Shown in pieces: positions 4,891 to 24,206 of a stretch of DNA of 64,000 bases (positions are counted from its first letter, which is position 1; the number at the start of each line of letters is the position of its first letter). The DNA lies in NCBI RefSeq assembly GCF_000522985.1, contig NZ_CP007130.1, positions 496,001 to 560,000 on the forward strand, given 5' to 3'. The position numbers were made by a program, and so were the translations under genes. The notes under the pieces were generated by a model. It was not told the DNA's origin. It saw nothing but the letters and a program-made list of their open reading frames with translations, and ran no database searches. The DNA is from Gemmatirosa kalamazoonensis. Lineage in GTDB: Bacteria; Gemmatimonadota; Gemmatimonadetes; Gemmatimonadales; Gemmatimonadaceae.

Positions 4891-6125
4891 CCGTGCCCCT
4901 GCGGCACCGCGTCGACCAGCAGCAGCTCCTCCGCCCGCACGTCGCGCGGCACCTCCTCCACCGGATCCAGCACGCCGATCTCCTGCTCCGGCGCCGCGCC
5001 GAGGTCCCGGAACCGGCGCGCCGACACGAGCACCCGCGCCTCCATCGACCCGACCGCCTGGTTGTACGACCGCACCGTCTTGCCGAGCTGCTCGCCCACG
5101 CGCGCGAAGTGCTCGCCGAGGGTGCCTAACCGCTCGTAGAGCTCCCGGCCCAACGCGCTGATCGCGCGGGCGTTCTCGGCGAGCGCTTCCTGCCGCCAGC
5201 CGTAGGCGAGCGCCTTCAGCAGCGCGATGAGCGTCGTCGGCGTGGCGAGGATCACGCGCTGCCCCACCGCGTGCTCGATGAGCGACGGGTCGTGCTCGAG
5301 CGCGGCGCTGAAGAACGACTCGCCGGGCAGGAACAGCACCACGAGCTCCGGCGCGCGCTCGAACTGCTCCCAGTACGACTTGCGGCTCAGCGCCTGCACG
5401 TGCGCGCGCACCTGCCGCGCGTGCTGCGCGAGATGCCGCCGGCGCTCGTCGTCGTCGGCCGCGGCGACGGCGGCGAGGTACGCGTCGAGCGGCGTCTTCG
5501 CGTCGACCACGATGCTCTTGCCGCCCACCAGACGCACGACGAGGTCGGGGCGCAGCTTCCCGTCCTCGCCGTCGACGGTGTGCTGCGTCGCGAAGTCGCA
5601 GTGCTCAAGCATCCCCGCCAGCTCGCAGACGCGCTTGAGCTGCACCTCGCCCCACTGGCCGCGCACGTGCGGCGTGCGGAGCGCGGTCACCAGCTTCTGC
5701 GTCTCGTGGCGCAGCGACTCGCTCGACGCGGCCACGCCGTCGAGCCGCTCGGCGAGCATGCCTAACGACTCGGCTCGCGCCAGCTCCATCGCCTGGAGCG
5801 TGCGGTCGTACGTCGCGAGCCGCTCGCGGATCGGCGCGACGAGCGCCTCGATCGCCGTCTCGCGCTCGCGCAGGTCGACCCTCGACGACTCGGCGGTGCG
5901 CTCCAGCTCCGTGCGTGCGAGCCGCAGGAACGCCTCGTTGTTCTGCCGCAGCGCCTCCGCCGACAGCGCCTGGAACGAGTCGCGGAGCCGCGCGTCGAGG
6001 TCGTCCGCGCGCCGGCGCTCGGCGTCGAGCCGCGCGCGGTGGGCGGGGCGCACGGCGAGCAGCGCGACGACGGCGCCGACGAGCGCGCCGGCGACGAACG
6101 GGAGGACGGGAAGGAGCGGCGACAT
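4863..6125 (-). CDS. rmuC: DNA recombination protein RmuC
   Basis: 420 aa, close to the usual RmuC length. An N-terminal membrane anchor (about residues 5-24, [18 protein letters not shown]) is followed by a long coiled coil rich in Arg, Glu and Ala (about 25-130). The RmuC nuclease-like core follows, with [39 protein letters not shown] and [11 protein letters not shown]. The D-x-K in VVDAKTPL is the expected PD-(D/E)XK-like element. RmuC limits inversions at short inverted repeats in E. coli, which is notable because its own 3' end lies inside a long inverted repeat. Stop codon TGA at 4863-4865. Confidence 0.95.
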
Positions 6126-6246
6126 CGGGGGCGCGTTAGGCGGGACGGAAGCGGGCGGCGGGCGCCGCGAAGAAGACGGGCGGCGGCCCGTGCCCGAAAC
6201 ATTCCCGCCGCGCCGCGCGAGGTCGAGGGGCAGCGCCCGTCCGCCC

Positions 6247-6936
6247 TCACGCCGACACGATGAGGAAGCCGACGAACCGCCCGTCGGGACCGGCGATGCG
6301 ACTCGAGATGAGATAGTCGTACACCGCGGTCCACTGCGTCAGCTCGTGCACGGTGACGCACCCCTCGGACACGTGCCCCGGGTGGATGTACCGGCTGCTG
6401 TTCCCGCTCATGCCCTCGAGCTGGATGGGGAACCAGACGTCGGTGCACCGCATGCCGGGCGTCTTCGCGCGATACGGCCCCGTGTTGATGTTCGCGTGCG
6501 ACTGGTCGGGAGCCATGATCATGTGCTTCCCGCGCGGGATCGGCGTGAACGATTCGTCCCACACGCTGTTGAGCGAGACGAGCGCGTGGACGCCGGCCAC
6601 ACTCACGGTCGCCCACTGCTGCTTCAGCGGTCCCTTGAACGGCGAGTTCTCGATGATCGGGGCTCCGAACGGGCTGACTTGCACGATCGCCGGTCCCATG
6701 GGGCCGACATCGGACAGGTACGTCGCCGCGTTCGCGGTCGTGAGGCTCGCCTCCTTGCCGACGTGCTCGGAGTTGCCATCCGCGATCGTGAAGTACTGAC
6801 GCCCTCCGGTCTCCCGCAGCAGCTGCACCCTGGTGTACTCGCACAGGTACGCCGCCTGGCCGGACCCGTTCAGGGTCACCCGCAGCCACCCGGTGTCGTC
6901 CGCCCGCCGCGTGTACTTCACCCCGATGTCGCCCAT
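6247..6936 (-). CDS. L,D-transpeptidase-like (YkuD-fold) protein
   Basis: 229 aa. Start ATG at 6936 is fixed by a strong AGGAGG eight bases upstream. The C-terminal half carries [16 protein letters not shown], matching the H-x-x-x-S-x-G-C catalytic pattern of L,D-transpeptidase/YkuD-like folds, with Cys as probable nucleophile. The N-terminal 110 residues form an unassigned beta-rich region. No convincing signal peptide, so it may act inside the cell or leave by another route. It lies 59 bp downstream of another exported-type gene on the same strand, so the two may be co-transcribed. The catalytic class is well supported by the motif; the substrate is unknown. Confidence 0.7.
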
Positions 6937-6995
6937 GATGACATCCTCCTGAGAGTCGTCCGACGAAACCGATCCAGGGGGGGTGGAAGGGTGGA

Positions 6996-7673
6996 CTAGT
7001 GCTCCGCCGTCGCGCTGGAGCCGTGATCGATGAAGTAGGTGAAGCTCCCGTCGCCGCCGACGGTGCCGACGTCGCAGTACAGGCACCGGTGCTGGCCGCC
7101 GCCGCCCGACTGCTGCGCGAGCGCGACGAGGTTGAAGTACGCGGGCCCGCCCTCGAGACCACCGACGCCGTTCGCGTCGACCCAGTAGCGGCCGGGAACG
7201 ATCGGCTGGCGCACGATGCGCGCGAGCACCGCGACGTCGATCGGGTGCAGCTCGCGGCCGTTCACGAACACGCCCGTCACGTCGCCCGCGCCGCCGCCCG
7301 ACGCGTCGGCCCGCAGTCGCCCGCCGAGCGTCAGGCCCGCGGCGATGATGCCCCGCGCCGGGCCGCCGCGCATGCCCCACGCGCCGGTGTCGCGATCGTA
7401 CCAGTAGTCGCCCGGGCGCACGCCCATGCCGTAGCGCCGCTCGATGTCGCGGATGGTGCGGTCGTCGAGCGCGACGCCGTTCACGATCACCGACGACGCG
7501 ACCTCCACGGCGGGCTCCGGCGCGTCCGGTGCCGCGACGGGAACGGGCGTGACGGCGACCGGTGCCGCCGGCCGACCATGTCTCGTCCCCTGTGCACCCA
7601 CCAGCGCGACCGCACCGACGACGAGCCCCGCGACGACCAGCTTCACGCCGCGCCCCGATCCGTGCTCCGACAT
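6996..7673 (-). CDS. Exported protein with repeated GxYW/GGP modules
   Basis: 225 aa. N-terminal hydrophobic segment (about 10-27, VKLVVAGLVVGAVALVGA) serves as signal peptide or anchor, followed by a Pro/Ala-rich linker to about residue 60. Two related modules follow: GDYWYDRDTGAWGMRGGP and GRYWVDANGVGGLEGGP, each preceded by a D-x-x-x-x-x-R helix. VFVNGREL lies between them. The tail has a CLYC pair that could bind metal or form a disulfide. Modules of this kind occur in conserved exported bacterial proteins of unknown function. Upstream of and probably co-transcribed with the L,D-transpeptidase-like gene. Confidence 0.7.
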   Translation of the reverse strand: MSEHGSGRGVKLVVAGLVVGAVALVGAQGTRHGRPAAPVAVTPVPVAAPDAPEPAVEVASSVIVNGVALDDRTIRDIERRYGMGVRPGDYWYDRDTGAWGMRGGPARGIIAAGLTLGGRLRADASGGGAGDVTGVFVNGRELHPIDVAVLARIVRQPIVPGRYWVDANGVGGLEGGPAYFNLVALAQQSGGGGQHRCLYCDVGTVGGDGSFTYFIDHGSSATAEH

Positions 7674-7740
7674 AGTTCCGCTCCCGCGTGGAAGGTGATG
7701 CGGATCACCAATCCCATACGCGGCGCCGAGCGTGGACCGA

Positions 7741-10353
7741 TCAGGGGTTGAGCCAGTAGCTCGCCTTCACCACGAGGATGTTGTCCGGCCGCGTCGCGAA
7801 CAGCGCCGCGCGGTCGCGCCCGAACGCGAAGTCGCCGACCGGCGCGATCCCCTGCCGCAGCTGCTGCCACGCGACGTAGAGCGTGGACCCGGGCCGGTAC
7901 TCCCAGCGCAGCACCGCGTTGCCGCGCAGCGAGCGGAGGTTGAAGTCGAGGTCGGGCACGCGTCCCGGGTAGTCCGCGAAGTCGTACGAGCGCGCGCGCA
8001 CGAGCTGCCGCGCCGCGCCGTAGTCCGCGCTCGAGATGAGCGGCTGCACGTACGTCTCGAGCGAGAGGTCGCGCGTGAACGTCACGTTGAGCCGCGTCTC
8101 GAGGCCGAGCTCCGTCTGGGCGAGCGGCGCGAACAGGTAGCGCGCGCCGTACGTCGGCGTGTACGCGCTGTCGCGCACGGCGGTCACGTACTGCGCGGTG
8201 ACGCGCGCCTTCGTGAACGTCGGACCGACGCGCAGGTTCCACCGCGACGACGTCTTCAGCCCGACGCCCGCCTCGACGTTGTACGTCCAGCCGCCGCTCT
8301 CGTCGCGCTGGTAGAACACGCCGCCGTCGCCGGTGATCGGCTTGCGCCCGTCCGACGAGAACGCGACGTTCGCCGCCACGTTCGCCGGCCGGATCGCGAT
8401 CGGGCCGCCGCGCGTCAGGCGGTCGTCGAACGACCGGAACTGCCGCCGCACCGCGCCGTTGAACGACCAGTAGCCGACCGTGAGCAGGTTCGCGTTCACG
8501 CCGCCGACGGTGAGGATCGGCTCCCACGCGGTGTTGTGCTCCGACCGCACGTTCGGCGTCACCGACCACCGACGCACGTGCTTGCCGGGACGGTTCTCGC
8601 GGTACGACACGTTGAACGCGACGTCGCGCCGATCGGTGCGGTACGAGAACCCGAGATCGTTCACCTCGTAGCCGGGGCTCGTCGCCGCGGCAGCGAGATC
8701 GCCGCGCCAGTGCTCCCCCGACTGCTTCGTGATCCCCGCGCTCGCCGAGTAGCCGCCGAGCGACGCCCGGGTGCCTAACGGCGCGTTCGGGTCGACGTCG
8801 ACCGCGAGGTGGTCCGCGTCGGGGCGCTGGAAGAAGTGGTTCGACGCCGTCTCCACGAGCGCGATCGACGCCGCGCTGCCGCGAATCAGGCTGCCCTCGG
8901 CGTCGCCGCGGAGCCGCCACGCGTGGTTCGCCCACTCGTGCCGGAAGTCGACGCCGCCGGCGAACGCGTCGGACCGGAAGGCGCGCCGCAGCACGTCCGT
9001 GGCGAGGTCGCGATGCACCGCGGTCAGGGCGCCGCCGACGATCGTCTGCCCACCACGGTACTCGCGCCGCGCGCGGCTCACGAAGTAGCCCGACCGCGGC
9101 TCCGCGGCGCTCGTGAGGTCGTGCCCGAGGTCGTCGCGGTAGCGCGCGTTCTCCCGGCCGGTCACCGCGCCGAGCGTGCCTAACGACCACCCGGCCACCT
9201 TGCCGGAGAGCTTCGCCGCCCCGAGGATCGTCGTCGTCGTCGGGATGTCGGCGAACGGTGTCGGAGCGCCCAGCGTCGGCGCGCGGCCGATGCGGCGGCT
9301 GTAGAAGAGCTGCCCGCCGCTCGTGTTGCCGAGCCCGAAGTCGAAGATCTCGCTCCCCTCGAGGAAGAACGGCCGCTTCTCCTCGAAGAACGTCTCGTAC
9401 ACGCCGAGGTTCACGACCGCGGGGTCGACCTCCACCTGTCCGAAGTCGGGGTTCAGCGTCGCGACGAGCGTGAGGTTCGACGCCACGCGGTAGCGCAGGT
9501 CGAGCCCCGCCGAGCCGACGTACTCGTGCTTCGTGCGATACGGGTTGCCGTGCGGGTCGACGTACTCCGCGCGGCTCACGGTGTACGGCAGCAGCTCCAG
9601 CCGCTTGCCCGCGTGCAGCCCGTTGAGCCCCGCGAGATGGCCGTACGCCGGTACCCCGCCGCGATCGCGCTTCGGGATGAACGTCGAGACCGCGTACTCG
9701 AGGTTGCGACCGATGACGCGCTCGAACTGCACGCCCCACGTCTGCGCGCTATCTCTGCCGAAGCGGAGCTGGCTGAACGGGATGCGGTACTCCGCGGTCC
9801 ACCCGCCGGAGTCCACCGACGTCGCGACGTCCCACACCGCGTCCCACGAGTTGTCGTCGGCGTCGATCGTCTTCACCTCGTCGCGCCGCACGCCCGCCGG
9901 GTTCACGTCGAAGCCGAACGCCGTGCGATGATCGTGGTAGCTGTCGAGCATCACGCCGAACCAGTCGGAGTCGCCCAACGGCATGTCGCGCCGGCCGAGG
10001 CGCCCGGTGACGCGTCCGCGGTCGTGCAGCCGCACGCCGACGTACAGCGCATCGTCGTCGTAGAGCACGCGCACCTCGGTGCGCTCGCTCGCCGGCTTTC
10101 CCTCGTCGGGGTCGATCTGCGTGAACGCGTCGGTGACGGGGGCGTCGCGCCATGCCGCGTCGTCGAGTCGTCCGTCGACGTGGATGGTGCCGACGAGGCG
10201 CGCGGCGCGGGACACGGGGACCGCGGCCCCGCCGGCCGAGACGGTCGGGGCGACGCTCGGCTGGGCGAGCGCGGAGCGAGCGGCCACCACGGCGGGCACC
10301 ATGGCGGCCAGCACCGCGCCGACGGAGGGGATCGGGCGCAGGAGGGGATGCAT
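7741..10353 (-). CDS. DUF5916 protein with CBM9-like N-terminal domain
   Basis: 870 aa from the ATG at 10353 (MHPLLRPIPS), with a signal peptide ending near SALAQ. After it comes a carbohydrate-binding family 9-like domain (about 50-235: HVDGRLDDAAWRDAP, LYVGVRLHDRG, YRIPFSQLRF). A DUF5916 region follows, with the hallmark FFEEKRPFFLEGSEIF and then a long stretch of alternating beta strands ending in YWLNP with a terminal aromatic, typical of an outer-membrane beta-barrel. Members are usually found in Bacteroidota, Gemmatimonadota and Acidobacteriota near uptake genes; the ligand is unknown. A second member lies at 56678-59068. No clear ribosome-binding site at this start. Confidence 0.9.
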   Translation of the reverse strand: MHPLLRPIPSVGAVLAAMVPAVVAARSALAQPSVAPTVSAGGAAVPVSRAARLVGTIHVDGRLDDAAWRDAPVTDAFTQIDPDEGKPASERTEVRVLYDDDALYVGVRLHDRGRVTGRLGRRDMPLGDSDWFGVMLDSYHDHRTAFGFDVNPAGVRRDEVKTIDADDNSWDAVWDVATSVDSGGWTAEYRIPFSQLRFGRDSAQTWGVQFERVIGRNLEYAVSTFIPKRDRGGVPAYGHLAGLNGLHAGKRLELLPYTVSRAEYVDPHGNPYRTKHEYVGSAGLDLRYRVASNLTLVATLNPDFGQVEVDPAVVNLGVYETFFEEKRPFFLEGSEIFDFGLGNTSGGQLFYSRRIGRAPTLGAPTPFADIPTTTTILGAAKLSGKVAGWSLGTLGAVTGRENARYRDDLGHDLTSAAEPRSGYFVSRARREYRGGQTIVGGALTAVHRDLATDVLRRAFRSDAFAGGVDFRHEWANHAWRLRGDAEGSLIRGSAASIALVETASNHFFQRPDADHLAVDVDPNAPLGTRASLGGYSASAGITKQSGEHWRGDLAAAATSPGYEVNDLGFSYRTDRRDVAFNVSYRENRPGKHVRRWSVTPNVRSEHNTAWEPILTVGGVNANLLTVGYWSFNGAVRRQFRSFDDRLTRGGPIAIRPANVAANVAFSSDGRKPITGDGGVFYQRDESGGWTYNVEAGVGLKTSSRWNLRVGPTFTKARVTAQYVTAVRDSAYTPTYGARYLFAPLAQTELGLETRLNVTFTRDLSLETYVQPLISSADYGAARQLVRARSYDFADYPGRVPDLDFNLRSLRGNAVLRWEYRPGSTLYVAWQQLRQGIAPVGDFAFGRDRAALFATRPDNILVVKASYWLNP

Positions 10354-18273: not shown

Positions 18274-18897
18274 TCAGGCGTCGCGGCGGAGCTCCACGGC
18301 GAGCCACGCGCGCGCCGCGCGCCAGTCGCGCTGCACGGTGGGCGTCGAGATGCCGAGCGCCTCGGCCGTCTCCTCCGCGGTGAGGCCCGCGAAGTAGCGC
18401 AGCTCCACCACGCGCGCCTGGCGCTCGTCGAGCTGCGCGAGCCGGGTGAGCGCCTCGTCGAGCGCCACCAGCTCGTCGGCGCGCACGGGGCTCGCCTGCG
18501 CCGCCTCGTCGAGCGTGACGGCGAACTCGCCGCCGCCGCGCTTCTCGGCCAGCCGCTCGCGCGCGGCGCCGACGAGCACCTGCCGCATGGCGCGCGCGGC
18601 GACGCGCAGGAAGTGCTGCCGCCCCTCCCACGACGGCTGCGCCGCGGGCGCGAGCTTGAGATACGCCTCGTGGACGAGCGCCGTGGCGCCGAGCGTCTCC
18701 GAGGCGCGGCCGCCGCGCACGAGCACGGCGAGGCGGTGCAGCTCGTCGTACACCTTCGCGAACGCGCGGTCGAACGCGTCGGAGTCGCCGGCGCTCGCCG
18801 CGCGCAGCAGGATCGTCAGCTCGCCGGGATCGGCGTGGTCCTGCGCGGAAGCGGCGGGATCGCTCACGGGGGGAGGGGCGGACGTTGTGTTAGGCAC
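18274..18897 (-). CDS. ECF sigma factor (TIGR02999 type)
   Basis: About 207 aa. The start is uncertain: GTG 18897 overlaps the end of the kinase gene by eight bases, and GTG 18867 would avoid overlap. Region 2 includes ATALVHEAYLKLAPA and HFLRVAARAMRQVLVGAARER. Region 4 is DERQARVVELRYFAGLTAEETAEALGISTPTVQRDWRAARAWL. The usual acidic residue of the D-L-V-Q-E motif in region 2.2 is Ala/Leu here (TALVHE). In the Vibrio EcfP type, that acidic function is supplied by threonine phosphorylation from a partner kinase. Last gene of the histidine kinase/Ser-Thr kinase operon; no anti-sigma gene adjoins it. Confidence 0.85.
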   Translation of the reverse strand: MPNTTSAPPPVSDPAASAQDHADPGELTILLRAASAGDSDAFDRAFAKVYDELHRLAVLVRGGRASETLGATALVHEAYLKLAPAAQPSWEGRQHFLRVAARAMRQVLVGAARERLAEKRGGGEFAVTLDEAAQASPVRADELVALDEALTRLAQLDERQARVVELRYFAGLTAEETAEALGISTPTVQRDWRAARAWLAVELRRDA

Positions 18898-19969
18898 GGT
18901 CGATGACGTCCCGGAGCGCACCGGCGCTCGGGAGGCGGTCGGGCGGTTCGGTGGCCAGCGCGCGCTGCATCGCCTGCGCCACCGCGTCCGGCACGTCGGG
19001 GCGGAGGGCGCGCACGTCGGGCGCCGGACCGGTGTCGCGGCCGGTGAGCACCGCGCGCAGCGCCGCGCCGCGATACGGGCGCTCGCCGGTCAGCATCTCG
19101 TACAGCAGGCCACCGAGCGCGTAGACGTCGGTGTACGTCCCCACGCGCTCGCCGCGCGCCTGCTCGGGGCTCATGTAGCGCGGCGTACCGATCGCCGCGC
19201 CGGGCACGGTGAGCGCGCCGTCCATGTCCGCGAGGTCGAGCGCGCGCGCGACGCCGAAGTCGGCGAGGTGCGCGGCGCCGTCGGCCGTCACGAGCACGTT
19301 CTCCGGCTTCACGTCGCGGTGCACGATGCCGTGGGCGTGCAGGTGGGCCAGCGCGTCGGCCATCTGTCGCCCGACGCGCAGCGCGTCGGCGAGCGCGAGC
19401 CGGCGCTCCGCCTGCAGCCGCTCGCGCAGCGTGGGCCCGTCGACGAACGGCATGGTGAACCAGAGGCGCCCGTCACTCTCCCCCGACTCGAGCACCGGGA
19501 CGAGGTTCGGATGCGAGACGCGCGAGCCGACGCGGATCTCGCGCAGGAAGCGCTGGCGCGTGTCGGCGACCGCGAGCGCCGCGGCGACCGACGGGCGCAG
19601 CACCTTGATCGCGACGTCGGTGGCCCGGCCCTCGTCGTGCGCGAGGTACACGACGCCCATGCCGCCCTTGCCGAGCAGCCGCACGACGCGGAACGGCCCG
19701 ACGTGCTCGTCCGGGGCGAGCTGCTCGCGCACGGGCGGGCGATTGCCTAACAGCTCCGCCGGTCGGCGGTCGAGCACCGAGGTCGCCGATGCGTCGGCGG
19801 CGAGCATCGCCTCGACGTCGGCGCGGAGCGTGGCGTCGAGGCCGGCGAGCCACGCGGCGCGCGCCGGCTCGGGCTGCGCCAGCGCTTCGTGGAACAGCTG
19901 CTGCACGAGCGCCCAGCGCGTCTGCGCGGCCGAGGGCGCGGCGGACCCGGTGTGCTCGGAGGGGAGCAT
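18890..19969 (-). CDS. Serine/threonine protein kinase
   Basis: 359 aa from ATG 19969. An N-terminal helical region typical of these kinases (about 15-75) precedes a complete Hanks-type kinase domain. It has the glycine loop LLGKGGMGVVYLAHD, the lysine in VAIKVLRP, HRDVKPENVLV, DFGVARAL and MSPEQARGE. There is no transmembrane segment and no C-terminal sensor domain, so input must come from elsewhere, plausibly the GAF-rich histidine kinase whose stop lies 5 bp upstream. The stop codon TAA is inside a GTTAGGC word that also forms the start region of the sigma-factor gene. Likely target: the ECF sigma factor. Confidence 0.92.
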   Translation of the reverse strand: MLPSEHTGSAAPSAAQTRWALVQQLFHEALAQPEPARAAWLAGLDATLRADVEAMLAADASATSVLDRRPAELLGNRPPVREQLAPDEHVGPFRVVRLLGKGGMGVVYLAHDEGRATDVAIKVLRPSVAAALAVADTRQRFLREIRVGSRVSHPNLVPVLESGESDGRLWFTMPFVDGPTLRERLQAERRLALADALRVGRQMADALAHLHAHGIVHRDVKPENVLVTADGAAHLADFGVARALDLADMDGALTVPGAAIGTPRYMSPEQARGERVGTYTDVYALGGLLYEMLTGERPYRGAALRAVLTGRDTGPAPDVRALRPDVPDAVAQAMQRALATEPPDRLPSAGALRDVIDRA

Positions 19970-19974
19970 GCGTG

Positions 19975-22900
19975 TCAGGCCAGGGGGAGCGCGAGCGTGA
20001 ACGTGGAGCCCACGCCCGGCGCACTCACGACGGTGAGATCGCCGCCCATGCCGCGCGCGAGGTCGCGGCTGATCGCGAGCCCGAGCCCCGTGCCCTCGAG
20101 GTTCGTGGAGAGCGAGCGGCCGAGCTGCACGAACGGCTCGAAGATGTGCTCGATCTTCTCGGAGGGAATGCCGATGCCGGTGTCGCGCACCTCGACGAGC
20201 GCGCCCTCGCCGTCGCGCGCGCAGCGGATGACGACCTCGCCGTGCGCCGGCGTGTACTTCGCCGCGTTCGACAGGAGGTTGAGCAGGATCTGCCGCAGCT
20301 TGTCGGCGTCGGCCCGCACGACGAGCGTCGCGTCGCACCCCGCGTGCGCGTGGCGGATGCCCTTCGCGTCGAACTGCGGCTCGACGAGCGCGGCGACGGC
20401 ACACACCGCGTCGTGCAGCGACACCGCGACCGGGTGGAACTCGACCTTCCCGGCGTCGAGCTTCGCGAAGTTCAACACGTCGTTGATGAGGCCGAGCAGG
20501 TGCGACTGCGACGCCTGGATCCGCGCCAGCGCCTCGGACTGCGCGTCGGTGAGCGGGCCGTGGATCCCGAGCTCGAGCAGCTGTGCGTGGCCGCCGATCG
20601 CGTTCAGCGGCGTGCGCAGCTCGTGGCTCATCGTCGCCAGGAAGTCCATCTTCGCGCGGTTCGCCGCCTCGGCCTCGGCGCGCGCGACACGCTCCGCCTC
20701 GTAGAGCCGCGCGTTCTCCAACGCGACGGCGCTGCGCCGCGCGAGCTCCTCGGCGAGTGCGAGATCGTCGGCATCGTACTGCCGGTCGGACTCGGTGATC
20801 ATGAACGACAGCGCGCCGAGCGTGGTGTTCGCGACGACGAGCGGCGCGAGCATGTACGACCGGATCCCGACGCCCGAGATCGCCGCGCGCTGCGCCTCGT
20901 TAGGCACGTGGGCGGCGAGCCGCTCCGGCGTCAGGTCGGGGACGAGCACCCCGTGGCCGTCGAGCAGTCGCTGGAACGTCTCGGGCTCCACGCGCTGCCG
21001 CACGTCGAGGTTCGCACGAGCGGAGGCGGCGATGAGCGCCGCCTTCGCCGGGTCGACATGGACGTTGACCGCGCGCTCGAACGCGCCCGCCGCGTACAGC
21101 AGGTCCACCGCGCAGCCGTCGGCGAACGTGGGAACGGCGAGCTTCGCGATCGCGGCGAGCGTCCCGCGGACGTCGAGCGGTGCCGCGAGCGTGCGTCCGG
21201 CATCCGCGAGGACGCGCAGACGGCGCGACAGCCGCTCGGCCTTCTCGCGCTCGTGGCGCTCCGCCTCGTACAGGTTCGCGCGGGCGAGGGCGAGCGCGCA
21301 CTGGCCGGCGAACGCGCGCATGTGCTCGCGCTCCGCCTCGGTGAACGGGCGCGGCTCCGTGAAGTTGAACACCACGAGGCCGAGGAGCCGGCGGCCGGCG
21401 TGCAGCGGCAGCGCCGCGAACGCGGGGAACCCGTGGTGCGCCATCGCCGGCACGAGCACCGGGAATCGCTCGCGCGCCTCGTCCATCGACCGCACGAACA
21501 CCGGCGCGCCGGTGCGCACCACCTCGCTCCCCGCCGTGCCGCGGTCGATGGGATAGCGGCGCCACGGCCGCATGAACTCCGACGACAGCCCGGCCGCGCC
21601 GAGCTGCACGAACTCGCGGTCGTCGTCGCTCAGCAGGTTGAACAGGCCGCCGGCCGCGCCGAACGCGGGGCGCGCGCGCTCGAGCGCGACCGCGGCGACA
21701 TCCTCGGGCCGCACCGCGCCGGTGAGCGCGGCGGTGAGCGTCTGCAGCTCGCGCACGCGCGCCGCCTCGGCCACCGCCGCCGCGCGCGCCTCCCCCGACG
21801 ACTCGAACAGCCGCGCGCGCTCCTTCGCCTGCGCGCACTGCGCGGCGAACGCGACGAGCTGCGCGCGCTCGTCGTCGCTCACGACGTGCGGCGCGCGCCA
21901 CGCGAACGCGATCATGCCGAGCGTGCGCGCATCGACGCGGAGCGGCAGCGCGACGATGGCCTCGTATCGGCCGGCTTCCATCACCGGCACGAACGCGGGG
22001 AACGCGCGCCGCACGGCTTCGAGGTCCTCCAGTAGCACCGGCTCGCCGGTCGTCACCACACGCCCGCCGGGCGAGCCGCTCGTCACGGTGTAGCGCCGCC
22101 AGTGCGCGACGGTGTCGTCCGGGAAGCCGGCCTGCGCGAGCAGCGACAGCGTGACGCCGTCGGCGTGCAGCCGCGTCACCACGCCGGCGTCGGCGCCGAA
22201 CGCGGGGATGCCATGATGCAGCACGACGTGCGCGACGGCGTCGTTCGTGAGCGCGGAGCCCAGCGCCGCGGTGAGCGCCTGGAGCTGCCGCGTGCGCTCC
22301 GCCGCGCGCTCCGCCGCCGCGCGGGCCGCGCGCTCCGCGGTGTGCAGCTGCGCGTTGTCGAGCGCGAGCGCGGCCCGCGCGGCGAGCTCGCCGGCGAGTG
22401 GCAGGTCCGCATGCGTGTAGCCAGGCGCACCGTCGCCACGCACGAGCGTGAGCGCGCCGAGCGTGCGGCCGCGCGCGCGCAGCGGTACGCAGAGGTACGA
22501 GCGCAGGCCGAGCGCCTCGAGCGCGGCGCGGCGCTCGGGCACGCGGGCGAGCGCAGCGGCCAGCGGCGTCGGGATCTCCGTGGCGACCTGCGGCTCGCCG
22601 CTGCGCACGACGGCCGGCGCGCCGTACGCCCACGTCGGCTCCGACGGCCAGCGCACGACCTCGCGCGCGGCTTCCATCCGGTCCGGCTCGACGTGCACCG
22701 CCGCGACGCGCCGCAGCGTGTCGTCGTCGGCCAGCAGATCGACCATCGCCCAGTCGGCGAGCGTCGGCAGCGCGGCACGCGCGACCGCGGCGGCCGTCTC
22801 GTCGACGTCGAGCGAGCGCGCGATCGCCGCGCTCGCGGTGCCGAGCAACCGGTCGGCGGCCTCCGCGCGGCGTCGCTCGGTGACGTCGCGGAAGACGATG

Positions 22901-23757
22901 GTGGCGCCGTCGTCGATCGGCGCGATGCGCGCCTCGACCCACGCGCCCACGGACGCGGCGTACTCCTCGACGGTGGACGAGCGCCCGTCGCGGATCGCCG
23001 CCCAGATCGCGCGTGAGAACCGCGTCTCGGCGAGCGCCGGATACACGTCGGAGGCGGCGCGGCCGATCAGCATGGACGCGGGCTTGCCGAGCATCGACTC
23101 GGCCCGCGCGTTGAGGTAGGTGAAGCGATAGGCGCGATCGACGGCCAGGAAGCCGTCCTCGATCGACGCGAGCACCATCTCACTCAGCGCGCGCGCGCGG
23201 CGCTCCGCCTCGGACAGCCGCGCGCGGTCGAGCGCCTGCGCGCACTGGTCGGCGAACGCCTGCATGAACGCGCGCTCCTCGGACGTGAACGCGCGCGGCG
23301 CGGGGAACGTGATGGTGAGCGCGCCGAGCACGACTTCGTCGACACGCAGCGGAAGCACGCACCACGCGCCGTCGGTCACCCCGGACGGGAGGACGCCGGG
23401 GGCCTGCGCGTAGCGCGCGGTCCACCCGGCGAGCGACTCGACGTAGACCGGCTCGCGCGTGCGCACGACGTCGCGCGCGGGGAGCGGTACCGCGTCGGGA
23501 AAGGACGCCTGCCCGTCCGGCGAGAGCTCGACGACGGCGCCGGTGTGTGCGCCGAGCGCGGGGACGAGCTGCGAGACGACGACGTCGGCCACCGCGTCCC
23601 GAGCGAGTGGGCGGGCGAGCGCGGCACTCAGCCGCTGCAGCGCCTTCGTGCGTGCGGCGGGGGTTCGCGCGAGCCGCGTGACGCCGTCGCCGGACGCGGA
23701 GTGCGGCGAGTCGAACGAGCGACGCGTGAAAGGCACGGGGTGGGACGGAGGCGGCAT
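19975..23757 (-). CDS. Multi-GAF/PAS hybrid-type sensor histidine kinase
   Basis: 1,260 aa from ATG 23757 (MPPPSHPVPF). Order: GAF1 (about 35-180), PAS (185-300, DGFLAVDRAYRFTYLNARAE), GAF2 (305-465), GAF3 (480-650), GAF4 (665-830), GAF5 (845-1010), HisKA with phospho-acceptor His in FLATMSHELRTPLNAI, and HATPase_c with LLNLLSNAAKYTP, DTGIGIPSEK and GTGLGLAIS. GAF3 and GAF4 are clear duplicates (both have HWRRY or PWRRY followed by a V-V-x-T-G-x-P-V motif); GAF2 resembles GAF5. No membrane segment and no receiver domain. It heads an operon with a Ser/Thr kinase and an ECF sigma factor, and no response regulator is nearby, so the phosphoryl route is unknown. Confidence 0.92.
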   Translation of the reverse strand: MPPPSHPVPFTRRSFDSPHSASGDGVTRLARTPAARTKALQRLSAALARPLARDAVADVVVSQLVPALGAHTGAVVELSPDGQASFPDAVPLPARDVVRTREPVYVESLAGWTARYAQAPGVLPSGVTDGAWCVLPLRVDEVVLGALTITFPAPRAFTSEERAFMQAFADQCAQALDRARLSEAERRARALSEMVLASIEDGFLAVDRAYRFTYLNARAESMLGKPASMLIGRAASDVYPALAETRFSRAIWAAIRDGRSSTVEEYAASVGAWVEARIAPIDDGATIVFRDVTERRRAEAADRLLGTASAAIARSLDVDETAAAVARAALPTLADWAMVDLLADDDTLRRVAAVHVEPDRMEAAREVVRWPSEPTWAYGAPAVVRSGEPQVATEIPTPLAAALARVPERRAALEALGLRSYLCVPLRARGRTLGALTLVRGDGAPGYTHADLPLAGELAARAALALDNAQLHTAERAARAAAERAAERTRQLQALTAALGSALTNDAVAHVVLHHGIPAFGADAGVVTRLHADGVTLSLLAQAGFPDDTVAHWRRYTVTSGSPGGRVVTTGEPVLLEDLEAVRRAFPAFVPVMEAGRYEAIVALPLRVDARTLGMIAFAWRAPHVVSDDERAQLVAFAAQCAQAKERARLFESSGEARAAAVAEAARVRELQTLTAALTGAVRPEDVAAVALERARPAFGAAGGLFNLLSDDDREFVQLGAAGLSSEFMRPWRRYPIDRGTAGSEVVRTGAPVFVRSMDEARERFPVLVPAMAHHGFPAFAALPLHAGRRLLGLVVFNFTEPRPFTEAEREHMRAFAGQCALALARANLYEAERHEREKAERLSRRLRVLADAGRTLAAPLDVRGTLAAIAKLAVPTFADGCAVDLLYAAGAFERAVNVHVDPAKAALIAASARANLDVRQRVEPETFQRLLDGHGVLVPDLTPERLAAHVPNEAQRAAISGVGIRSYMLAPLVVANTTLGALSFMITESDRQYDADDLALAEELARRSAVALENARLYEAERVARAEAEAANRAKMDFLATMSHELRTPLNAIGGHAQLLELGIHGPLTDAQSEALARIQASQSHLLGLINDVLNFAKLDAGKVEFHPVAVSLHDAVCAVAALVEPQFDAKGIRHAHAGCDATLVVRADADKLRQILLNLLSNAAKYTPAHGEVVIRCARDGEGALVEVRDTGIGIPSEKIEHIFEPFVQLGRSLSTNLEGTGLGLAISRDLARGMGGDLTVVSAPGVGSTFTLALPLA

Positions 23758-23953: not shown

Positions 23954-24005
23954 GTTTGGTACGCGGATCAGCGGATTCGTGAATCAATCGATCCGCGTAC
24001 CAAAC
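23954..24005. repeat. 16-bp perfect inverted repeat
   Basis: 23954-23969 pairs perfectly with 23990-24005, with a 20-base loop; each arm includes GGTACGCGGATC. The GCGGATC unit is shared with the hairpin at 34374-34443, suggesting a common family. It lies upstream of the histidine kinase gene and downstream of the receptor gene. Confidence 0.8.
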
Positions 24006-24070: not shown

Positions 24071-24206
24071 GCGGAGCACTGCGTCTTCGAAGCGAACCGC
24101 AGAGGACGCAGAGGGCCGCAGAGGAGACCAACTCCCGTCGTTGGTGGTCCTCTGCGGCCCTCTGCGTCCTCCGCGGTTCATTCACACTGCCAAGGCAGTG
24201 CTCCGC
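24071..24206. repeat. Nested long hairpin, 32-bp stem with one mismatch
   Basis: 24094-24125 pairs with 24148-24179 over 32 bp with one mismatch and a 22-base loop. The arms are tandem GCAGAGG-type units. A second, outer 12-bp perfect repeat pairs 24071-24082 with 24195-24206 (GCGGAGCACTGC). It begins 17 bp beyond the stop of the TonB-type receptor gene, where a strong terminator would be expected. The arm units resemble repeats seen in several unrelated phyla, as I recall; a search would settle this. Confidence 0.85.

Follow-up and report, generated by a model that had tools for sequence, protein, structure and literature searches.

The 64,000-nucleotide stretch of DNA analyzed here (the window) comes from Gemmatirosa kalamazoonensis (positions 496,001 to 560,000 of NZ_CP007130.1), whose 7.48-Mb genome is assembled in four contigs, and it sits on the contig of 1.04 Mb. 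On the minus strand of the window, from position 23757 to 18274, lie three co-oriented genes in the order histidine kinase (HK), Ser/Thr kinase (STK), and extracytoplasmic function (ECF) sigma factor. Sigma factors of the kinase-switched ECF43 type are already known; what is new at this locus is the combination of an HK, a sensor-less STK, and such a sigma factor. The more general result concerns a three-helix domain at the N terminus of the STK, which marks ECF43-linked kinases and probably serves them as a sigma-docking module. The features of the locus, in window coordinates, are the following.

19975..23757, minus strand: histidine kinase gene (ATG at 23757, stop at 19977-19975), domain order GAF-PAS-GAF-GAF-GAF-GAF-HisKA-HATPase_c
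23209..23676, minus strand: first GAF domain of the HK, as scanned segment (PF01590, E = 9e-14)
22849..23190, minus strand: PAS domain of the HK, as scanned segment (PF08448, E = 2.3e-16)
20719..22836, minus strand: whole span of GAF domains 2 to 5 of the HK, in four segments scanned singly
22339-22836, minus strand: GAF 2 (best GAF E = 1.2e-13)
21784-22266, minus strand: GAF 3 (best GAF E = 5.1e-15)
21244-21741, minus strand: GAF 4 (best GAF E = 4e-18)
20719-21216, minus strand: GAF 5 (best GAF E = 8.1e-10)
18890..19969, minus strand: gene of the soluble STK, 359 amino acids (ATG at 19969, stop at 18892-18890)
19751..19924, minus strand: N-terminal three-helix domain of the STK (profile A1, E = 8.8e-17; G000:C4:515751-515924; the window copy is itself in the profile)
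19064..19690, minus strand: protein kinase domain of the STK (Pfam match; GKGGMG, HRDVKPEN, and DFG motifs by eye)
18274..18921, minus strand: ECF43-type sigma gene (PF07638, TIGR02999; candidate GTG starts at 18921, 18897, or 18867)
18682..18684, minus strand: codon of the Thr in GATA-LVHE (Thr62 if counted from GTG 18867), corresponding to the phosphosite of EcfP and EcfK

The HK and STK genes are separated by exactly 5 nt (TGA-cacgc-ATG). Because the sigma gene, which stops at 18274, has three possible GTG starts, its exact junction with the STK gene is left undecided; a start at 18897 would give an 8-nt overlap with the STK stop. The sequence-only reading of this DNA had described three co-oriented genes with a 5-bp gap and an overlap, a five-GAF/PAS HK, a soluble STK without a sensor domain, and a sigma factor whose region 2.2 (TALVHE) lacks the usual acidic residue, and it had rightly named EcfP as a precedent. 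That description agrees with our results, the overlap being present if GTG 18897 is the start.

The sigma factor scored 200.5 bits against TIGR02999 (cutoff, 126.15) and 167.7 bits against PF07638. Its region 2.2 reads GATA-LVHE and has no Asp or Glu at the position of the usual DAED motif, and the Thr of GATA is invariant in all 24 ECF sigma factors aligned from the window's genome and its relatives. According to the portions of two publications available to us (PMC8999054, PMC13147305), ECF43 members lack the acidic DAED of region 2.2, and a Thr located there is phosphorylated by the neighboring Hanks kinase; the motif is STTA in EcfP and QATE in EcfK, and the published ECF43 consensus is QTTA, with the Thr kept in 88% (PMC13147305). 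Since GATA aligns to the DAED position, its Thr falls on the EcfP/EcfK phosphosite, a point absent from the sequence-only reading. No anti-sigma factor was found among the operon itself and the four neighboring genes scanned (two per side). Together, the TIGR02999/PF07638 match, the Thr motif, the adjoining STK, and the lack of an anti-sigma factor among these genes fit a sigma factor of the ECF43 type, where we infer that TIGR02999 is equivalent to ECF43.

The pairing of STK and sigma factor was followed in 59 genomes (that of the window and 58 relatives of other genera) and at 80 named loci, which were picked by sigma similarity and are therefore no random sample. The named loci span many phyla and are mostly from Acidobacteria, with Gemmatimonadetes, Verrucomicrobia, Planctomycetota, Balneolaceae, Calditrichia, and more among the remainder; some of them may come from the same organisms as the relatives' loci. 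Their commonest region 2.2 motifs were QPTA (21 loci), QTTA (18), QATA (11), QSTA (7), and NTTA (6), and the Thr position was rarely Ser, Asn, or Ala. In the G. kalamazoonensis genome, 14 ECF sigma factors match PF07638 with E values below 1e-33; the Thr is present in every one of them, and every one has a Pkinase match within 4 kb of its gene. With an STK near each of the 14 ECF43 genes, the STK-sigma pair of the window is thus an ordinary member of an expanded system. The order of STK before sigma was considered as a special feature of the locus and rejected, as it recurs at L004 (in the same genome, by coordinates) and at 4 of the 80 named loci (L167, L187, L214, and L237). An expansion was seen in a relative, G030, where nine sigma paralogues (L045-L053), 59 to 66% identical to the sigma factor of the window, all lie beside STKs bearing the N-terminal domain; this within-genome set is suited to the study of partner choice.

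An N-terminal domain of ECF43-linked kinases

Read side by side, STKs adjacent to ECF43 genes have a segment of ~60 residues ahead of the kinase domain that other STKs hardly have. A profile of this segment (A1) was built from 31 copies, the window sequence included; further copies of loci already represented (L045, L054-L058) were excluded from the alignment, as were L033 (in G050) and L038 (in G035), two ECF43-linked STKs that resemble the others only just before the kinase domain (FLETPAF). Profile A1 has 17 matches in the G. kalamazoonensis genome and covers all 14 ECF43-linked STKs there, versus 3 of the 69 other PF00069 matches (Fisher test, 2.6e-13); two of these three share gene clusters with ECF43 (in L007 and L008), and the third is ~18 kb from the nearest. 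When ECF43 presence in a genome was defined by a best E value below 1e-20, 37 of the 59 genomes had both ECF43 and the domain, 19 had neither, 2 had ECF43 only, and 1 had the domain only, an agreement in 56 genomes (Fisher test, 2.9e-12), and the counts of the two per genome were correlated with a Spearman coefficient of 0.96. Genomes without ECF43 are still rich in STKs, with a mean of at least 25 scored matches. An ECF43 gene lay within 700 bp of the domain at 26 of 30 domain loci that were fetched, and the domain was present in 66 of the 70 STKs at the 80 named loci. By these sequence comparisons, the domain is a marker of ECF43-linked kinases and is nearly absent from other STKs.

In an AlphaFold2 model of the window's copy, the domain consists of helices at residues 14 to 31, 34 to 42, and 46 to 67 (block pLDDT of 90 to 94 for residues 21 to 60) and is joined to the kinase by a loose linker. 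A comparison of profile A1 with the PDB chains gave a single strong match, residues 7 to 63 of 9EED (E = 2e-9; next best, 0.06). This structure is PknS of Xanthomonas citri, which phosphorylates EcfK; as far as its description was accessible to us, the first 81 residues are unseen in the crystal, three to four helices are predicted for them by AlphaFold2, and no function is assigned to them. No Pfam entry matched more than 2 of the 31 domain members (best E value, 0.0046). An anti-sigma-like fold was tried as a candidate, Foldseek returning nothing below an E value of 3.6 and VIA-align nothing above a Z score of 4.2, an outcome that carries no weight for so short a domain. A literature search, which did not reach the founding paper (Iyer et al. 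2020) or the text of PMC4758666, found no statement of the domain as a marker or docking module; its description as the defining feature of PknS/PknT-type kinases is a result of the present work and not of those papers.

Several comparisons suggest that this domain is probably the sigma-docking module of the ECF43-linked kinases. At L224 (JAFGTD010000258.1, an Acidobacteria metagenome-assembled genome), one open frame (6548-9616) starts with the domain directly behind an ECF43 sigma gene and continues through a membrane region and a GAF-like stretch (by eye) to a kinase domain that lies ~700 residues farther on; with the sigma gene beside it and the kinase far away, the domain here keeps with the sigma factor rather than with the kinase fold. 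Among 93 pairs that passed our filters (a domain match, an HxDxK motif within 260 residues, and a sigma gene within 700 bp), the distance correlation was higher between domain and sigma factor (r = 0.33) than between domain and kinase of the same protein (r = 0.16), and kinase blocks of equal length gave r = 0.20 to 0.27 against the sigma factor. For comparisons within one genome, 10 of 12 loci in G030 and 12 of 14 in the G. kalamazoonensis genome passed. For the 10 pairs of G030, which lie within one genome so that the descent of the organism is held constant, the domain-sigma correlation was 0.71 (P = 0.0002) versus 0.15 for kinase and sigma factor.

The kinase part of the window's STK (PF00069, 154.6 bits) is followed at once by the end of the protein, and no membrane segment is predicted. 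Counted from the domain start, the STK has 343 amino acids, making it the shortest in a set of 39 measured frames of domain-bearing STKs, three of which are truncated by contig ends; most of the other domain-bearing STKs extend hundreds of residues farther and include a membrane segment. Ending as it does at the kinase domain, the window's STK is thus kin to the PknS/PknT-type kinases yet no receptor kinase. Soluble STKs also occur beside ECF43 genes without any HK, at L171 and L152, and a rule that a sensor-less STK requires an HK was rejected on that account. Given these soluble STKs and the recurrence of the gene order elsewhere, what is singular at the locus is the combination of HK, sensor-less STK, and sigma factor alone.

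Two described systems are close to this pair. As summarized in review descriptions, EcfP/PknT of Vibrio parahaemolyticus shares the nonacidic region 2.2 (STTA there, GATA here), the Thr in the same place, and the adjoining STK gene, with no anti-sigma factor seen; the STK of the window differs in being soluble, sensor-less, upstream of the sigma gene, and preceded by an HK. EcfK/PknS of X. citri shares the kinase type and the homologous N-terminal domain, and the window's GATA Thr corresponds to Thr51 of EcfK. However, in the accessible parts of its description, PknS is a receptor kinase that spans the membrane, one acidic residue remains in EcfK (QATE), whose linker is phosphorylated as well, and no HK is mentioned for that system.

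The histidine kinase and its neighborhood

The five GAF domains and the PAS domain of the HK were each confirmed on their own segment. HisKA and HATPase_c follow; by eye, the translation shows the H-box and the N and G boxes. Domains and motifs are intact, and no receiver domain was found in the protein. Many sensor histidine kinases are orphans, and no response regulator was detected within 23 kb of this one, judged by PF00072 matches on the contig. The nearest receiver domains (C4:477649-477984 and C4:543504-543821) are ~38 and ~24 kb away, and the genome has 111 receiver-domain matches, which could include ordinary partners for the HK, so that it could be served by an unlinked response regulator. 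We consider it probable that the locus combines an ECF43-type STK-sigma switch with an ordinary sensor HK that is co-expressed in the same operon and signals through such an unlinked regulator. HstK-type hybrids combine STK, GAF, and HK functions in one polypeptide, whereas the HK and STK of the window are separate genes, divided by a stop codon and the 5-nt gap, and the sigma factor is the likely output. SigE with CseBC (ECF39) likewise has an HK linked to an ECF sigma gene, and in the part of the source available to us the sigma factor's production is under the control of the two-component system (PMC8999054); in contrast, there is no response regulator near the HK of the window. Elsewhere in the same genome, at G000:C4:768856-772338 (L161), an HK frame that contains two receiver domains, a response regulator of its own gene, and an STK lie one after another on one strand.

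The catalytic part of the HK belongs to a clan found in all 59 genomes, with 9 to 24 matches each. Its matches are often 50 to 65% identical there, and likeness between neighboring HKs therefore means little. The closest homologue among the matches listed, compared over the last 420 residues, was G009:C4:481071 (57%). Its genome has no strong ECF43 match, and neither an STK nor an ECF match was found in the 16 kb retrieved around the homologue. HK neighbors were sought at 132 ECF43 loci (14 in the G. kalamazoonensis genome, 29 of relatives in short stretches, 9 more from G030, and the 80 named loci) by resemblance to the window's HK, so that remote HK types may escape. Such an HK lay beside the sigma or STK gene at three of them, the window, L013, and L047, and conservation of the order HK-STK-sigma, which had been put forward as a check by the sequence-only reading, was not found, as the order occurred at 1 of the 132 loci, the window. 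At L013 (G000:C2, about 1977000), the HK gene (6550-8709) ends 11 nt before the GTG of an ECF43 sigma gene (5963-6538), with the STK on the opposite strand from this pair; at L047 (G030:C4:212000-231000), an HK frame (6561-7613) on the opposite strand separates an ECF43 sigma gene from its STK. None of the 80 named loci has a window-type HK within 3 kb of the sigma gene, and at three of them (L223, L233, and L241) one is found 3.6 kb or more away. The HK was accordingly rejected as a conserved part of the module, given its common clan and its absence within 3 kb at the named loci.

These counts bear on the possibility that recombination simply placed the HK ahead of an STK-ECF pair with which it shares no function. 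With 95 HisKA and 83 Pkinase matches in 7.48 Mb, chance pairs are likely to arise, and the arrangement is not conserved; however, the 5-nt spacing and the co-orientation suggest translational coupling, and the HK has intact domains and motifs. We regard a chance neighborhood as rather unlikely.

The sequence-only reading had proposed a relay in which GAF signals reach the sigma factor through HK and STK with neither an anti-sigma factor nor a response regulator. The lack of the latter two holds for the four neighboring genes and the 23 kb scanned, and the STK-to-sigma step is borne out by family evidence. The HK-to-STK step is the part that found no support, given the single occurrence of the gene order, the common HK clan, and the soluble STKs without an HK. 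In such a true relay, the GAF/PAS-controlled HK would directly govern the soluble STK, by phosphotransfer or binding, and thereby replace its lost sensor, and the STK would activate the sigma factor. The 5-nt gap, the lack of a sensor in the shortest of the 39 STK frames, the distance to any response regulator, the second ECF43 gene of the genome lying directly behind another HK (L013), and the GAF-like stretch in the L224 frame with domain and kinase all speak for it. Set against these are the frequency of the gene order, a closest listed HK homologue (in G009) with no STK or ECF match in the 16 kb around it, the HK-free loci L171 and L152, and a frequency of neighboring HKs at the ECF43 loci of the genome (2 of 14) close to that expected by chance (P about 0.06, roughly estimated from 6,500 genes and two neighbors per locus). 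To our knowledge, there is no precedent for phosphotransfer from a histidine kinase to a Hanks kinase. The evidence is neutral on a relay from the HK, which we judge improbable, and a cytosolic His-to-Ser/Thr-to-sigma cascade with a docked sigma factor, working with neither response regulator nor anti-sigma factor, is improbable to the same degree.

Signal flow might also run in the other direction: the STK would have two substrates, the HK and the sigma factor, and this one kinase would set a two-component arm together with a sigma arm. Other bacteria have Hanks kinases that act on two-component proteins, and the tight gene spacing would suit this arrangement, but no sequence feature tested marks the HK as a substrate, and we hold it to be very improbable.

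The genes flanking the operon encode a TonB-dependent receptor, an AlkZ-like protein, a ROK protein, and a DAO oxidoreductase. An inverted repeat of 25 nt (84% complementary, 2-nt spacer) is located at 23954-24005, ~200 bp upstream of the HK gene, for which a terminator in the surroundings of the TonB receptor gene and an operator are candidates. A second one of 32 nt (97% complementary) at 24094-24179 is made of CCGCAGAGGACGCAGAGG-like units and resembles a dispersed palindromic element.

Functional model and significance

If the locus is an ECF43-type switch with a co-expressed sensor HK, the sigma factor would be inactive as made, since GATA has none of the acidic residues through which contact is made with the beta-prime subunit of RNA polymerase. 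The three-helix domain of the STK would hold the sigma factor while the kinase phosphorylates the GATA Thr, and perhaps also a linker Thr, and the phosphate would restore the negative charge and allow the sigma factor to bind core polymerase. This STK-to-sigma step is very probable from family evidence, being supported by the ECF43 sequence, the position of the Thr, the adjacent STK, and the domain shared with PknS. As the STK lacks the transmembrane and sensor tail typical of its relatives, its activity would have to be set by its own amount, by cytosolic partners, or by a Ser/Thr phosphatase. The GAF/PAS HK would most likely be an ordinary cytosolic sensor kinase acting on an unlinked response regulator and, if the three genes form a single transcript, would be in the operon for co-expression, the two arms serving one response.

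Several observations weigh against parts of this model. In the window's STK, the domain lacks 3 residues in a loop. No STK in a recognized arrangement was present at 18 of the 80 named loci (contig edges included), 4 of the 30 fetched domain loci had no ECF43 gene within 700 bp, and the STKs beside ECF43 genes in G035 and G050 gave no domain match. In the G. kalamazoonensis genome itself, the domain-sigma correlation was 0.20 (P = 0.16, 12 pairs), and the domain tracked the kinase more closely (r = 0.32). The fold search gave no informative match, a three-helix domain being too short to be judged in this way.

If the pair works like its relatives, the locus would provide a minimal, wholly soluble ECF43 switch that should be more tractable in vitro than the membrane kinases known to date. 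With the HK ahead of the STK, the locus allows a direct link between two kinase classes to be put to the test; if the cascade were true, two large bacterial kinase classes would be joined in one linear pathway to RNA polymerase. If the N-terminal domain docks the sigma factor, it would account for the separation of as many as about twenty parallel kinase-sigma pairs in one genome, and it would provide a simple marker for finding such pairs.

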